Shown piece by piece: positions 4,680-36,611 of a DNA stretch of 64,000 nt (position 1 is its first letter; the number at the start of each line of letters is the position of its first letter). The notes beneath the pieces are model-generated. The model did no database searches and had not been told where the DNA came from. It saw nothing but the letters and a program-made list of their open reading frames with translations. The position numbers and the translations under genes were made by a program. This DNA is from Caminibacter pacificus. GTDB taxonomy: Bacteria > Campylobacterota > Campylobacteria > Campylobacterales > Nautiliaceae. The DNA is taken from assembly GCF_003752135.1 (NCBI RefSeq), contig NZ_RJVK01000001.1:1-64000 (forward strand), given 5' to 3'.

Positions 4680-4709
4680 CTTTCTTCTTTTTTTCGTTAT
4701 TACTAATTT

Positions 4710-4736
4710 CACAAACTTACAAATTCACTATCTCAA
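4710..4736. repeat. 8-base-periodic CAC repeat, copy 1
   Basis: CAC-like triplets recur at exact 8-base steps: CAC 4710, TAC 4718, CAC 4726, CAA 4734, with A/T-rich linkers. It is the most degenerate of four such sites in the window and lies between the EI24 gene and flgG. Confidence 0.6.
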
Positions 4737-4911
4737 CATATTCATCCAAAGATTAACCACCCTCAACAAGAGAGCAAATTTCGACCATTACAAAAAAGCT
4801 AAAAAGCCCGGACCTTTTCAAGCTTACGTGCTTTTTTTAACGCTTTTTTTTCATTGAAATTCGCAATCGTCTCGGGCTACTTAATTTTACATTTAATCAA
4901 ATCTTCAATTT

Positions 4912-4930
4912 CACAAACTCACTATTTCAC
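4912..4930. repeat. 8-base-periodic CAC repeat, copy 2
   Basis: CAC occurs at 4912, 4920 and 4928, exactly 8 bases apart (CACAAACT, CACTATTT, CAC). It lies just after the flgG stop, in the same orientation as copies 1 and 3. Confidence 0.65.
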
Positions 4931-4940
4931 TATTCCCTAA

Positions 4941-5729
4941 CTACCTCTTCAAATTATTAACAGTTTGAAGCATTTCATCACTTGTCATAATAGCTTTACT
5001 TGCCGCGTCATATGCTCTTTGACCGGTAATCAAGTCCGTCATCTCTTCTACAAGCTGTACGTTGCTCATTTCAAGAAAGCCTTGTCTTACTTCTCCTATT
5101 CCGTCGGTACCCGGTGTCGCAACTATCGGGTCACCTGAAGCTGAAGTATTGATATAGAGATTGCTACCAAGAGAGTGCAAACCTGCGGGGTTAATGAATT
5201 TTGCAAGTTGGATTTGACCGATTTGTTGCATTTGTGTTTGTCCGGCTTCAAGAATACTTACCGTTCCGTCGGTTCCTATAGAAACTTGTACGGTTGTCGG
5301 AGGTAGAGTGATTTCTGGGATTAATTTATATCCGTCGCTTGTTACTACGTTGCCGTCGGCATCAAGCTTAAAAGCTCCGTCTCTCGTATAAGCTATACGG
5401 CCGTCGGGTAATTGTACTTGAAAAAATCCGTCGCCTTGTATTGCCAAATCGAGATTGTTATTCGTTTGTTTTAGGTTTCCTTGAGTAAAAATTTTAGTAA
5501 CGGCGGTAGGTCTAACTCCAAGCCCGACATTAATACCCGTAGGTGAAATAGTTGTTGTAGATGTCGCCGTACCGGCGTATTCCATAGTCTGATAAAACAA
5601 ATCAGCAAATTCCGCTCTTTGTTTTTTATAACCTATCGTATTTACGTTTGAGATGTTATTCGAGACGACATCTATTTGCATTTGTTGAGCCATCATACCT
5701 GTGGCTGCCGTATAAAGACTTCTGACCAT
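4941..5729 (-). CDS. flgG: Flagellar distal rod protein FlgG
   Basis: FlgG forms the distal rod of the flagellum and is exported by the flagellar type III system. The 262 residues start with the family signature RSLYTAATGM, followed by VVSNNISNVNTIGYK (rod/hook N-terminal motif). The C-terminus MSNVQLVEEMTDLITGQRAYDAASKAI is the matching coiled coil. The start is the second of two ATGs (5729): the first, at 5735, touches the AAAGGA ribosome site, while the second is 6 bases from it. It is downstream of flgF, but 109 bases separate them, with its own sigma-54 site at 5761-5774. Confidence 0.97.
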   Translation of the reverse strand: MVRSLYTAATGMMAQQMQIDVVSNNISNVNTIGYKKQRAEFADLFYQTMEYAGTATSTTTISPTGINVGLGVRPTAVTKIFTQGNLKQTNNNLDLAIQGDGFFQVQLPDGRIAYTRDGAFKLDADGNVVTSDGYKLIPEITLPPTTVQVSIGTDGTVSILEAGQTQMQQIGQIQLAKFINPAGLHSLGSNLYINTSASGDPIVATPGTDGIGEVRQGFLEMSNVQLVEEMTDLITGQRAYDAASKAIMTSDEMLQTVNNLKR

Positions 5730-5760
5730 TTTCATTCCTTTATAGGATTTTTAATTCGTA

Positions 5761-5774: not shown

Positions 5775-5798
5775 GTTTTTTAACTAACATATAAGTTT

Positions 5799-5825
5799 CA
5801 CAAACTCACAATTTCACTATTTCAC
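5799..5825. repeat. 8-base-periodic CAC repeat, copy 3
   Basis: CAC occurs at 5799, 5807, 5815 and 5823 in exact 8-base steps with A/T linkers (AAACT, AATTT, TATTT). It fills the flgF-flgG spacer upstream of the flgG sigma-54 site. Confidence 0.7.
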
Positions 5826-5838
5826 CACTTTTCTCCCA

Positions 5839-6627
5839 TTACGCCCTAACGCTCCCGAGTTTCTCAATAGCGTCTTTTTGCAAGTCGTCCATAAATGTTG
5901 TCATGGCTTTTTGATATCTTTCTACAAGCCTGTTTGTTTCTATCAAATCCGTCATTTCACGAATAGGGTTTACGTTTGATTTTTCTAAAAAACCTTGAAG
6001 AGTTGAGTTTTTCGTATTTATGCTTTCGCTACCGGGTACGAATTCCCACATTTTATCACCGACTTTTTTTAAAGTTTTAGGGTTGTCTATGCTTACGATT
6101 TTTAACGTTGCTATTTTTTGATTGTTTACGTAAACGTTTGCGTCGCTGTCGATTACTAGATTTTTTGCATTAAGAGGGATTTTTATCGGTTCGTTTTTGG
6201 TGTTTAGGACTTTAAACCCTTCTTTTGTTACCAAATATCCTTTGTCGTCAAGTTCGAAATTCCCGGCTCTTGTGATTCTTTCGCCGTCTTGGGCCGAAAT
6301 TATGAAAAAGAGATTTTTTCTTTTTAGTGCGATATCAAGAGGATTTGAGGTTCTTTGCATATCGCCGAGTGAAAAGTTCGTATATTCCTCCACGATTTGA
6401 GGTACTTTATTGAGGTTGTGGTTTATCCATTTTGCGGCTTCTTTTGTATTGTTTTCAAGAGGAAGTTCGCTTCTTTTTTCGCTAAAGAGCCTTTCGAAAT
6501 CGCCGATAATAATATCGTCTTGTTTGAAGCCGGGCGTATTTACGTTGGCTAAGTTGTTTGAAATTACGTTTAATCTGTTGAATTGGGTTACCATTGCACC
6601 GGTTACGTCATAGTATCCGTTAATCAT
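5839..6627 (-). CDS. flgF: Flagellar rod protein FlgF (FlgG2-like)
   Basis: This is a proximal-rod protein of the flagellar axial family. The 262 residues show the N-terminal VISNNLANVNTPGFKQDD motif and the C-terminal SNVNPIREMTDLIETNRLVERYQKAM helix. The middle is more divergent than in FlgG. In Campylobacter the equivalent gene (flgG2/flgF) also precedes flgG. The start ATG follows AAGG by 7 bases, and a sigma-54 site lies at 6655-6668, so it belongs to the hook-basal-body class of flagellar genes. Confidence 0.93.
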   Translation of the reverse strand: MINGYYDVTGAMVTQFNRLNVISNNLANVNTPGFKQDDIIIGDFERLFSEKRSELPLENNTKEAAKWINHNLNKVPQIVEEYTNFSLGDMQRTSNPLDIALKRKNLFFIISAQDGERITRAGNFELDDKGYLVTKEGFKVLNTKNEPIKIPLNAKNLVIDSDANVYVNNQKIATLKIVSIDNPKTLKKVGDKMWEFVPGSESINTKNSTLQGFLEKSNVNPIREMTDLIETNRLVERYQKAMTTFMDDLQKDAIEKLGSVRA

Positions 6628-23626: not shown

Positions 23627-23996
23627 TCCGCAAATGACGATTGAAGAAGTTACCCTTGAAGAGATTGTCGATAAAATAAGAGATTTTTATGATGAAAACG
23701 TGTGGAATTATATCACCGTAAACGCTACGGACCTTGGAGATAAGCTTCAAATAGATTGGCTGTTTTCAAAATATAAAGAAAAAAACGTAATTCATATTTT
23801 TAGAGTTTTTTGTGATTACGACGCAAAAATACCTTCTATTGTCGAGGTGATTCCGAGTGCGTGGCTTAGCGAATGGGAGCTTGCGGACCTTTTCGGACTT
23901 GATGTCGAAAATGCGGCTACCGGAGTTTTTATTGCGCCGGACGGACCTAAAGCTCCACTTAGAGCATCTACTGAGTTTGGTAAATCAAGGAGTTAA
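23616..23996 (+). CDS. echD: Ech hydrogenase subunit D, NuoC-like
   Basis: The 126 residues match the NuoC/HycE-N type: DKLQIDWLFSKYKEKNVIHIFR, then PSIVEVIPSAWLSEWELADLFGLDVENA, where E-x-E-x-x-D-x-F-G is the family hallmark. It is a hydrophilic structural subunit contacting EchC and EchE. The start ATG is 6 bases after AGGAG. The stop overlaps the first of two ATGs at echE. Confidence 0.9.
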   Translation: MMINPQMTIEEVTLEEIVDKIRDFYDENVWNYITVNATDLGDKLQIDWLFSKYKEKNVIHIFRVFCDYDAKIPSIVEVIPSAWLSEWELADLFGLDVENAATGVFIAPDGPKAPLRASTEFGKSRS

Positions 23997-23998
23997 TG

Positions 23999-25081
23999 AT
24001 GGGAAAAATAGTAGTACCTTTCGGGTCGCAACACGTAGCGCTGCCTGAGCCTATAAGTTTTTTATTTGATACCGAAAACGAAATAATTACAAAAGTCGAA
24101 GCTCATATCGGATATGTTCACAGAGGTATAGAAAAAGCCGCAATTACGAGATTTGAGTATACTCAGCTTCCGTATTTAACTGCGAGAGTTTGCGGGCTTT
24201 GTTCCATTACTCACGCCGGTGCCGTGGTACACGGAATCGAAAAACTTATGGATATAGAAGTAAATAAAAGAATCGATTATTTAAGAATGCTTGTAGTCGA
24301 GCTTGATAGAATTCACTCTCATATGCTTGCAAACGGACACGTAGCCGAAGTAGTGGGTTATGAAAACCTGTTTATGCAAACGTTTAGAGCCAGAGAAGAC
24401 GTAATGGACGTACTTGAGAGAATTACGGGAAATAGAGTTCAATACGATTATCAAACTATAGGCGGAGTGGCAAGAGATATCGACCTTGAGACGGCGGAAT
24501 TTGCAAAGAAAAAGCTAAAAAAACTAAAAGATAACGTTTTAAAAGTAATGGAATTTCACGATAGCGATTATACTTTCGGGCTTAAAACAAAAGGTGTAGG
24601 CGTAATAAGTAAAGAAATGGCGGCGAAATACAATACGGCCGGACCTATCGCCAGAGCCAGCGGACTTGAAACGGATGTGAGAGCGGAATTCGACTATCTG
24701 CCGTTTGAAGAAGTCGGATACAAAATGCAATTAAGACATGAGGGTGATGTTTGGGCGAGAAATATGGTGAGATTCGATGAAGTGTTAAATTCAATCGAAA
24801 TGTGTGAGAATATTTTGGATAATTTGCCTGAGGGAGAACATCAAGTAAAAGTAAAAGGAAGACCAAAAGGCGAAACGGTAGTAAGAGTCGAAGCCCCAAG
24901 GGGAGAGTGTTTTTATTATCTTAAAGCCAGCGGTAAAAAGGTAATGGATAGGGTAAGAATCAGAGTACCGACATACGCAAATATTCCTATTTTAAAAGAA
25001 CTTTTCTTAGGAGCAAAATATTCGGACGCTCAGGCGATTGTGCTTAGTTTTGACCCGTGCATGAGCTGTACGGCGAGATAG
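23999..25081 (+). CDS. echE: Ech hydrogenase large subunit E, NiFe catalytic
   Basis: The 360-residue catalytic subunit binds the NiFe(CN)2CO centre. Motif L1 RVCGLCSITH lies at 63-72 and L2 DPCMSCTAR at the very C-terminus. The protein stops immediately after L2, so there is no C-terminal extension for an endopeptidase to remove, as known for Ech/CooH-type enzymes. All four Ni-ligand Cys are present, so it should be active. The second ATG (23999) is preferred because AAGGAG is 6 bases from it, 3 from the first. Confidence 0.96.
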   Translation: MGKIVVPFGSQHVALPEPISFLFDTENEIITKVEAHIGYVHRGIEKAAITRFEYTQLPYLTARVCGLCSITHAGAVVHGIEKLMDIEVNKRIDYLRMLVVELDRIHSHMLANGHVAEVVGYENLFMQTFRAREDVMDVLERITGNRVQYDYQTIGGVARDIDLETAEFAKKKLKKLKDNVLKVMEFHDSDYTFGLKTKGVGVISKEMAAKYNTAGPIARASGLETDVRAEFDYLPFEEVGYKMQLRHEGDVWARNMVRFDEVLNSIEMCENILDNLPEGEHQVKVKGRPKGETVVRVEAPRGECFYYLKASGKKVMDRVRIRVPTYANIPILKELFLGAKYSDAQAIVLSFDPCMSCTAR

Positions 25082-25088
25082 GGAGAAA

Positions 25089-25131
25089 GTGAATTAGTGA
25101 AATAGTGAGTTTGTGAAATTGTGAGTTTTTG
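25089..25131. repeat. 8-base-periodic GTG repeat, copy 4 (longest)
   Basis: GTG occurs at 25089, 25097, 25105, 25113 and 25121 and TTG at 25129, all exactly 8 bases apart. The linkers are AATTA, AAATA, AGTTT, AAATT and AGTTT. It is the reverse complement of copies 1-3. It occupies most of the 73-base echE-echF spacer. Confidence 0.85.
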
Positions 25132-25154
25132 AAAACGGAAAAAAAGGAGCGATA

Positions 25155-25661
25155 ATGCTTAAAATGTTTATAGAGAGTCTAAAAAACTTAGTAAGCGAGC
25201 CGGAGACGATAAAATATCCTTTTGCTCCTTCACCGGAGCCTAAAGGATATAGAGGAACGATACATTATAATGAAGAACTTTGTATTTTTTGTGACAAATG
25301 CGAAAATATATGTCCTCCGGGAGCTATTAAATTTGTAGTAGTCGATTACGAAACAGGCAAAAAAGAGTATAACTATAATCCGTATCTTTGTATCTATTGC
25401 GGTGCTTGTGTTAGAGAGTGCCCTAAAGCGGAAGAGGGATGTTTGGTGCAGGTTGAGACAAGAACTCCTCCTCTTGGAAGAAGCGTTCCGAAAGGAAAAG
25501 AGCTCGGGTATTTTATAAATAGAATCGAAGACCCTAAAGAAGTCGAGAGCAAGTGGAGAGAAATTGAAGAACTTAATATTAAAACGAAAGAAGAGTATAA
25601 AGCCTACAAAAAAGCGAAAAGAGCTCAAAAAGCCGCCGCAAAAGCCAAAAGCGAAGAGTAA
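25155..25661 (+). CDS. echF: Ech hydrogenase subunit F, 2x[4Fe-4S] ferredoxin-like
   Basis: The 168 residues contain two 4Fe-4S motifs: CIFCDKCENICP (about 37-48) and CIYCGACVRECP (about 79-90). It should connect soluble ferredoxin to the EchC cluster. The C-terminal 50 residues are a charged helix rich in Lys/Ala/Glu (KAYKKAKRAQKAAAKAKSEE), longer than a minimal EchF. Unlike the rest of the operon, it is separated from echE by 73 bases that hold the 8-base repeat, but it has its own strong AAAGGAG. Confidence 0.94.
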   Translation: MLKMFIESLKNLVSEPETIKYPFAPSPEPKGYRGTIHYNEELCIFCDKCENICPPGAIKFVVVDYETGKKEYNYNPYLCIYCGACVRECPKAEEGCLVQVETRTPPLGRSVPKGKELGYFINRIEDPKEVESKWREIEELNIKTKEEYKAYKKAKRAQKAAAKAKSEE

Positions 25662-36563: not shown

Positions 36564-36568
36564 AAATA

Positions 36569-36603
36569 GGGAAAAGGGAGGGGGATTGGGATTTGGGATT
36601 GGG
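36569..36603 (+). repeat. Potential G-quadruplex motif
   Basis: G runs lie at 36569-36571, 36576-36578, 36580-36584, 36588-36590, 36595-36597 and 36601-36603, separated by 1-4 A/T-rich bases (largely ATT units). This satisfies the G3 with loops 1-7 rule with spare runs, in an otherwise AT-rich region. Confidence 0.8.
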
Positions 36604-36611
36604 TATGTCGG

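Follow-up and report, generated by a model that had tools for sequence, protein, structure and literature searches.

Is the run of GTG triplets that separates two hydrogenase-like genes of Caminibacter pacificus a signal, or is it a repeat that was copied into the gap? In the window, i.e., the whole stretch of 64,000 nucleotides analyzed here, GTG occurs with an exact period of 8 bases at each of the four sites first noted (25089-25131, 5799-5825, 4912-4930 and 4709-4736). The first array (25089..25132, + strand) begins 7 bp past the stop codon of a hydrogenase/NuoD-like large subunit gene (23996..25081, + strand; best NCBIfam matches to NuoD models, all below cut-offs) and is followed by the gene of a NuoI-like ferredoxin subunit (25155..25661, + strand; best NCBIfam matches to NuoI and to hydrogenase iron-sulfur models, likewise under the cut-offs); the original prediction had called these genes echE and echF. 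Read from the sequence, the units are, in order, GTGAATTA GTGAAATA GTGAGTTT GTGAAATT GTGAGTTT, then TTGAAAAC. Four GTG units are found at 5798..5825 (- strand), 13 bp past the stop codon of a flgF-like flagellar rod gene (5839..6627, - strand; TIGR02490 just under and TIGR03506 over cut-off) and ahead of flgG (4941..5735, - strand; TIGR02488 over cut-off). A three-unit array (4911..4930, - strand) lies 10 bp past the flgG stop codon and adjoins a MITE-like element, on the far side of which a degenerate array is located in the same orientation (4709..4736, - strand; four units, of which two are degenerate: TTGAGATA GTGAATTT GTAAGTTT GTGA). Since the arrays at 4709 and 4911 lie on either side of a single inserted element of 150 bp, the four sites are not all independent.

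The pattern proved to be far more common than in shuffled DNA, which holds about none of it. The exact three-unit GTG period-8 pattern gave 6 matches in the window vs. 0.06 expected from shuffles, and the octamer consensus with one mismatch gave 8 vs. 0.00, the largest shuffle count being 0. No run of at least three GTG or CAC units was found anywhere in the window at periods of 4 to 15 other than 8. The search was then extended to the complete genome of 1.86 Mb in 8 contigs, and the stretches around the matches were read for annotation. This yielded 27 exact, overlapping four-unit matches, and the three-unit pattern with two mismatches (GTGADDTD twice, then GTGA) matched 123 times vs. 12 for the reversed pattern, a control that partly depends on the arrays themselves. 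Chance as the origin of the arrays is ruled out by the shuffle and reversed-pattern counts. In total, 40 arrays were annotated, so that the family is not confined to the four sites; 39 of them are intergenic, with 32 scorable spacers, intergenic status and spacer lengths resting on simple ORF calls.

The original description as GTG plus a variable A/T linker holds insofar as this is a spaced pattern with a period of 8. The unit, GTGAnnTn, is mostly GTGA followed by [A/G][A/T]T[A/T/G] and not by a random A/T linker. An ordered core, GTGAAATTGTGAGTTTGTGAAATTG, is common to about 25 sites; it spans ∼27 bp, GTGAAAT[A/T]GTGAGTTTGTGAAATTG, i.e., GTGAAAT(A/T) GTGAGTTT GTGAAATT G, and is extended on its 5' side by variable GTGA octamers, giving from 3 to about 8 units per array. 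The transition order of the units is non-random (p ∼ 0.013). The G strand contains 1.1% C, and the GTG strand carries stops in all three frames, as had been predicted, in 30 of the 30 arrays tested. An Rfam scan of the window returned four tRNAs and no other RNA family, and the RNA of the echE/echF spacer (25082-25154) showed no structure or hairpin above shuffles.

Spacer lengths were compared with those of relatives at nine spacers. The echE/echF junction measures 73 bp here vs. only a short stop-Shine-Dalgarno-start gap in seven relatives (G001, G002, G003, G007, G010, G011, and G012), all of which lack the array DNA. For example, the gap reads GATAGGAGGTAGATATG in G001, while here GATAGGGAG is followed by the array and then by AAAGGAGCGATAATG, so that the Shine-Dalgarno sequence is retained despite the array. 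By this comparison, the extra DNA occupies 25083..25142 (+ strand; end points approximate) with GGAG on both sides. Seven further spacers are likewise longer here. Four of them, within an 18-kb stretch of contig 2, measure 319, 185, 422, and 113 bp (ORF calls) vs. an unaligned gap of ∼0-18 bp in the closest relative, and the DNA between two of these spacers is colinear with that relative to within 50 bp (7,639 vs. 7,592 bp); some other relatives have longer gaps at the contig 2 spacers, filled with unrelated sequence. Three more array spacers measure 69, 302, and 107 bp vs. 7, below 0, and 14 bp in G001. The flgF/flgG spacer is 103 bp long here vs. 34-41 bp in three same-genus relatives, and the array there therefore fills part of an already existing gap. 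Judged from these alignments, the arrays are insertions at the compared spacers, at flgF/flgG only partly. Here, 60-330 bp separate genes that overlap or directly adjoin each other in relatives, which is compatible with the earlier suggestion of a translation-uncoupling spacer; the uncoupling looks more like a consequence of the arrays than like their purpose.

Any four-unit match occurred in 24 of 120 relatives, while exact four-unit arrays were found in 0 of 6 same-genus genomes (two of them incomplete; the search covered exact matches, with degenerate arrays outside it). More distant relatives carry octamers of their own, such as GTGGATGG and GTGRGAAG. Each genome thus has its unit pool: GTGAnnTn here (G000), GTGRGAAG in G023, GTGGATGR in G008 and G018, and GTGTATTG in G012, the last with GTG at period 8 and no TGA. 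Among the matches listed in a five-unit pattern scan of genome contigs, GTG-period-8 repeats occurred in many phyla, and 21 of the at least 140 arrays listed lay inside ORFs.

How the arrays multiplied can be judged from the units, as an array grown by slippage should hold units that resemble one another more than they resemble those of other sites. Within-site similarity in this genome was 0.604 vs. 0.643 when permuted, and a positive control with genomes pooled gave z = 20. The within-site value did not exceed the between-site value in G000, G023, or G018, and each genome therefore has one unit pool common to all its sites, different from the pools of other genomes. Slight local homogenization was seen in G008 (p = 0.0175), so slippage acts too. 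The ordered core, together with the outcome of the pooled-unit test, rules out local slippage as the sole origin. Simple-sequence slippage occurring independently at every site, in the manner of ordinary bacterial SSRs and possibly with phase variation, would fit the range of 3 to about 8 units and the slight homogeneity in G008; the recurrence of one ordered core at many sites and the pooled units of three genomes make it distinctly unlikely, and phase variation in coding sequence is further disfavored by the stops in all frames and the intergenic location.

We therefore favor, with a probability of roughly 0.6, a single dispersed, species-specific octamer family whose arrays are tolerated insertions spread by copying and not a regulatory signal. 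The ∼27-bp core with its variable 5' GTGA octamers would have spread by copying to tens of very small gaps between the genes of this genome, perhaps by array-to-array recombination or conversion or by transposition of an array-MITE composite, with later gain and loss of octamers at some arrays. Copies would persist where they do least harm, in the stretch from a stop codon to the Shine-Dalgarno sequence that follows and in the orientation that gives a C-less transcript. Among the roles first proposed, the mobile miniature repeat is the best supported, on the grounds of the dispersed core, the short spacers in relatives, and the lack of exact arrays in the six same-genus genomes (two of them incomplete). 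Neither an enzyme nor an excision or insertion signature was found for the solo arrays.

The MITE-like element itself (150 bp, 4745..4895, - strand) has imperfect inverted ends and an internal hairpin (AAAAAGCAC...GTGCTTTTT), with octamer arrays on both sides. It has 17 matches in this genome (L344-L360), and many others occur across the family (L361-L378 in relatives), the relatives' copies ending in ACTGACTAAATA...TATTTAGTCAGT. Octamer arrays, in part degenerate, adjoin all ten copies of one subfamily in this genome, and several of these copies have flanks in common beyond the element; we read this as probable joint copying of array and element. The remaining 6-7 copies stand without an array. 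Repeated insertion and excision of such elements with 8-bp duplications could in principle leave tandem octamers as footprints. Apparent 8-bp target duplications, read by eye, do flank two relatives' copies of the neighboring element family (L361, CAAATTAA; L365, TAAGTTTG), the ten array-abutting copies would fit, and excision has likewise been proposed for TAACTGA repeats (PMC4679880). Such duplications would copy local targets, yet the units come from one genome-wide pool; moreover, most array spacers hold no such element and the 6-7 other copies have no array, which renders this origin highly improbable.

The arrays are strongly oriented with respect to transcription. Counting each spacer once, codirectional spacers of up to 200 bp held 15 sense and 0 antisense arrays (p = 6e-5), i.e., the C-free strand is the mRNA, while all four antisense arrays of codirectional spacers lie in spacers of over 250 bp. 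The antisense transcript would be G-free and unstructured with regularly spaced C, and the reverse strand of 25082-25154 indeed folds to 0 kcal/mol. Published rut sites are C-rich, G-poor, and unstructured with C at regular spacing, and RhoTermPredict seeks C at intervals of 11-13 nt over a length of 78 nt (PMC6407284); the antisense octamer transcript fits this description of a Rho loading site except for the 11-13 nt spacing over 78 nt. Rho is encoded in the genome, and the opposite orientation would place a rut-like, G-free untranslated RNA inside an operon and might be selected against. Avoidance of Rho loading is, on these features, a tentative and rather doubtful specific reason for the strand bias; G023 and G008 do have short spacers with antisense arrays, and Rho is therefore a less convincing general explanation. 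A second rule concerns position. The 5' end of the G strand is nearer the gene neighbor in 26 of 32 spacers of this genome and in 48 of 58 over four genomes (G000, G008, G018, and G023), and arrays lie nearer this 5' neighbor, mostly a stop codon, rather than near start codons. The polarity holds even with an antisense neighbor (14 of 18 spacers), and there the tolerated-insertion account does not explain it. Directional genome-wide copying, possibly RNA-templated, that writes species-specific octamers into gene gaps is a far-fetched candidate; if it were true, the polarity common to these octamers and the Xanthomonas/Nostoc heptamers discussed below could mean one hitherto undescribed, enzyme-driven mechanism across phyla.

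Could the arrays nevertheless serve a function? In a regulatory array, each GTGA octamer would be a site for an RNA- or DNA-binding protein of the S1, Csp, or Csr type, and the arrays together would form a regulon. The regular spacing and the sense strand bias are what such a role would predict, and the same type of proposal was made for TAACTGA repeats (PMC4679880). However, the arrays are placed near stop and not start codons, relatives have the same genes with no array beside them, related genomes differ in the unit, the neighboring genes, where identified, are of mixed function, and the RNA at the echE/echF site has no special fold that would point to a binding-protein array. We consider such a role unlikely, and a dedicated regulatory role is unnecessary for the explanation. 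Another conceivable function is that of a three-frame stop cassette, kept by selection for its TGA codons in all frames, which would stop readthrough and uncouple the neighbors' translation. The three-frame stops of all 30 arrays and the sense placement just past stop codons agree with this, but antisense arrays occur and relatives lack arrays at the same genes, which makes it very unlikely; as a general reason, the cassette is ruled out by the TGA-free variant GTGTATTG of G012, which keeps GTG at period 8.

Repeats of comparable form exist elsewhere. The short tandemly repeated repetitive sequences (STRR) and long simple-sequence repeats (LSSR) of cyanobacteria, reportedly described by Mazel and by Mrazek and cited in PMC4679880, are said to have units of 5-11 nt, tandem at the heptamer scale and dispersed between genes. 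The arrays here show the features of this kind (units 5-11 nt), namely an above-chance period, many intergenic sites, and patchiness, and differ in the invariant GTG anchor with a genome-specific linker. The Nostoc small dispersed repeats (SDR), reportedly described by Elhai and colleagues in 2008, are said to be dispersed cores of 21-27 nt that occur inside minitransposons and short tandem repeats, and a hairpin is predicted for some SDR families. The array-MITE nesting seen here looks similar, although the core of this family is almost C-less on its G strand and has no evident hairpin. SDR are named in PMC3116915. Mobility through an RNA intermediate would mark a Nostoc-type SDR; what comparing the sequences reveals here is dispersal. 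Of the features expected of a REP/REPIN or MITE (inverted ends or a hairpin, with target duplication), the array alone showed no inverted ends and, at 25082-25154, no hairpin above shuffles, a possible GGAG repeat at echE/echF being the sole trace, and a REP-like identity was rejected for want of a hairpin.

The view that no described family has this form was not quite right, since intergenic 7-mer families of like form have been published, GGGNATC with the same position and strand rule (PMC4692102). These heptamers of Xanthomonas and Nostoc (GGGNATC/GGGGA(C/T)T; Rehm et al., 2015) lie nearer the 5' neighboring ORF in any orientation, have a 7-bp unit, form G-quadruplexes, and prefer four units (PMC4692102). 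Both families are dispersed, intergenic, and G-rich, with few units per site and neighbors of mixed function, and the octamers here are likewise nearer the 5' ORF and on the coding strand after stops. In contrast, the octamers have no GGG tract and hence no four G-tracts, so that identity with a quadruplex repeat was rejected, and while heptamer arrays are kept between the same genes, the octamer arrays are missing from the relatives in the genus. The TAACTGA direct repeats found in marine Beggiatoaceae, Cyanobacteria, and Bacteroidetes (MacGregor, 2015) have a fixed 7-bp unit, mostly just upstream of start codons in place of the Shine-Dalgarno sequence (PMC4679880). They share with the octamers a short tandem period, intergenic location, orientation bias, forward-strand stops, patchiness across phyla and, in some cases, close relatives with shorter repeat-free spacers. 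The octamer unit, however, is 8 bp, variable, and near stop codons, with the Shine-Dalgarno sequence kept at echE/echF; identity with TAACTGA was rejected for the wrong unit and the wrong side of the gene. A search for literature on octamer repeats in this bacterial group returned nothing relevant. The arrays thus represent a new octamer family within a known class of intergenic short-period repeats (STRR, LSSR, TAACTGA, GGGNATC). Such repeats are widespread in bacteria, but how they arise and spread is unexplained. In this case, the relatives' spacers without repeats indicate that the arrays were inserted in this lineage, the test of pooled units speaks against local slippage, the usual explanation, and the strand and polarity rules match a heptamer family of other phyla, which makes repeat origin testable in a small genome.

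Other short repeats occur nearby. Array spacers at L305, L308, L300, and L292 also hold GA-rich low-complexity stretches, e.g., GATGAGGAATA twice in tandem, which are possibly decayed arrays or other repeat families. Runs of the heptamers ATTGGTC/CATTGGT or TTAGGTG lie beside octamer arrays in G023 (L229, L232, L238), G075 (L033), and G116 (L040), and these runs in octamer-carrying genomes resemble cyanobacterial STRRs. The window itself contains a different, period-7 run (GGGATTG/GGGATTT) at 36564-36610, immediately past a stop codon.
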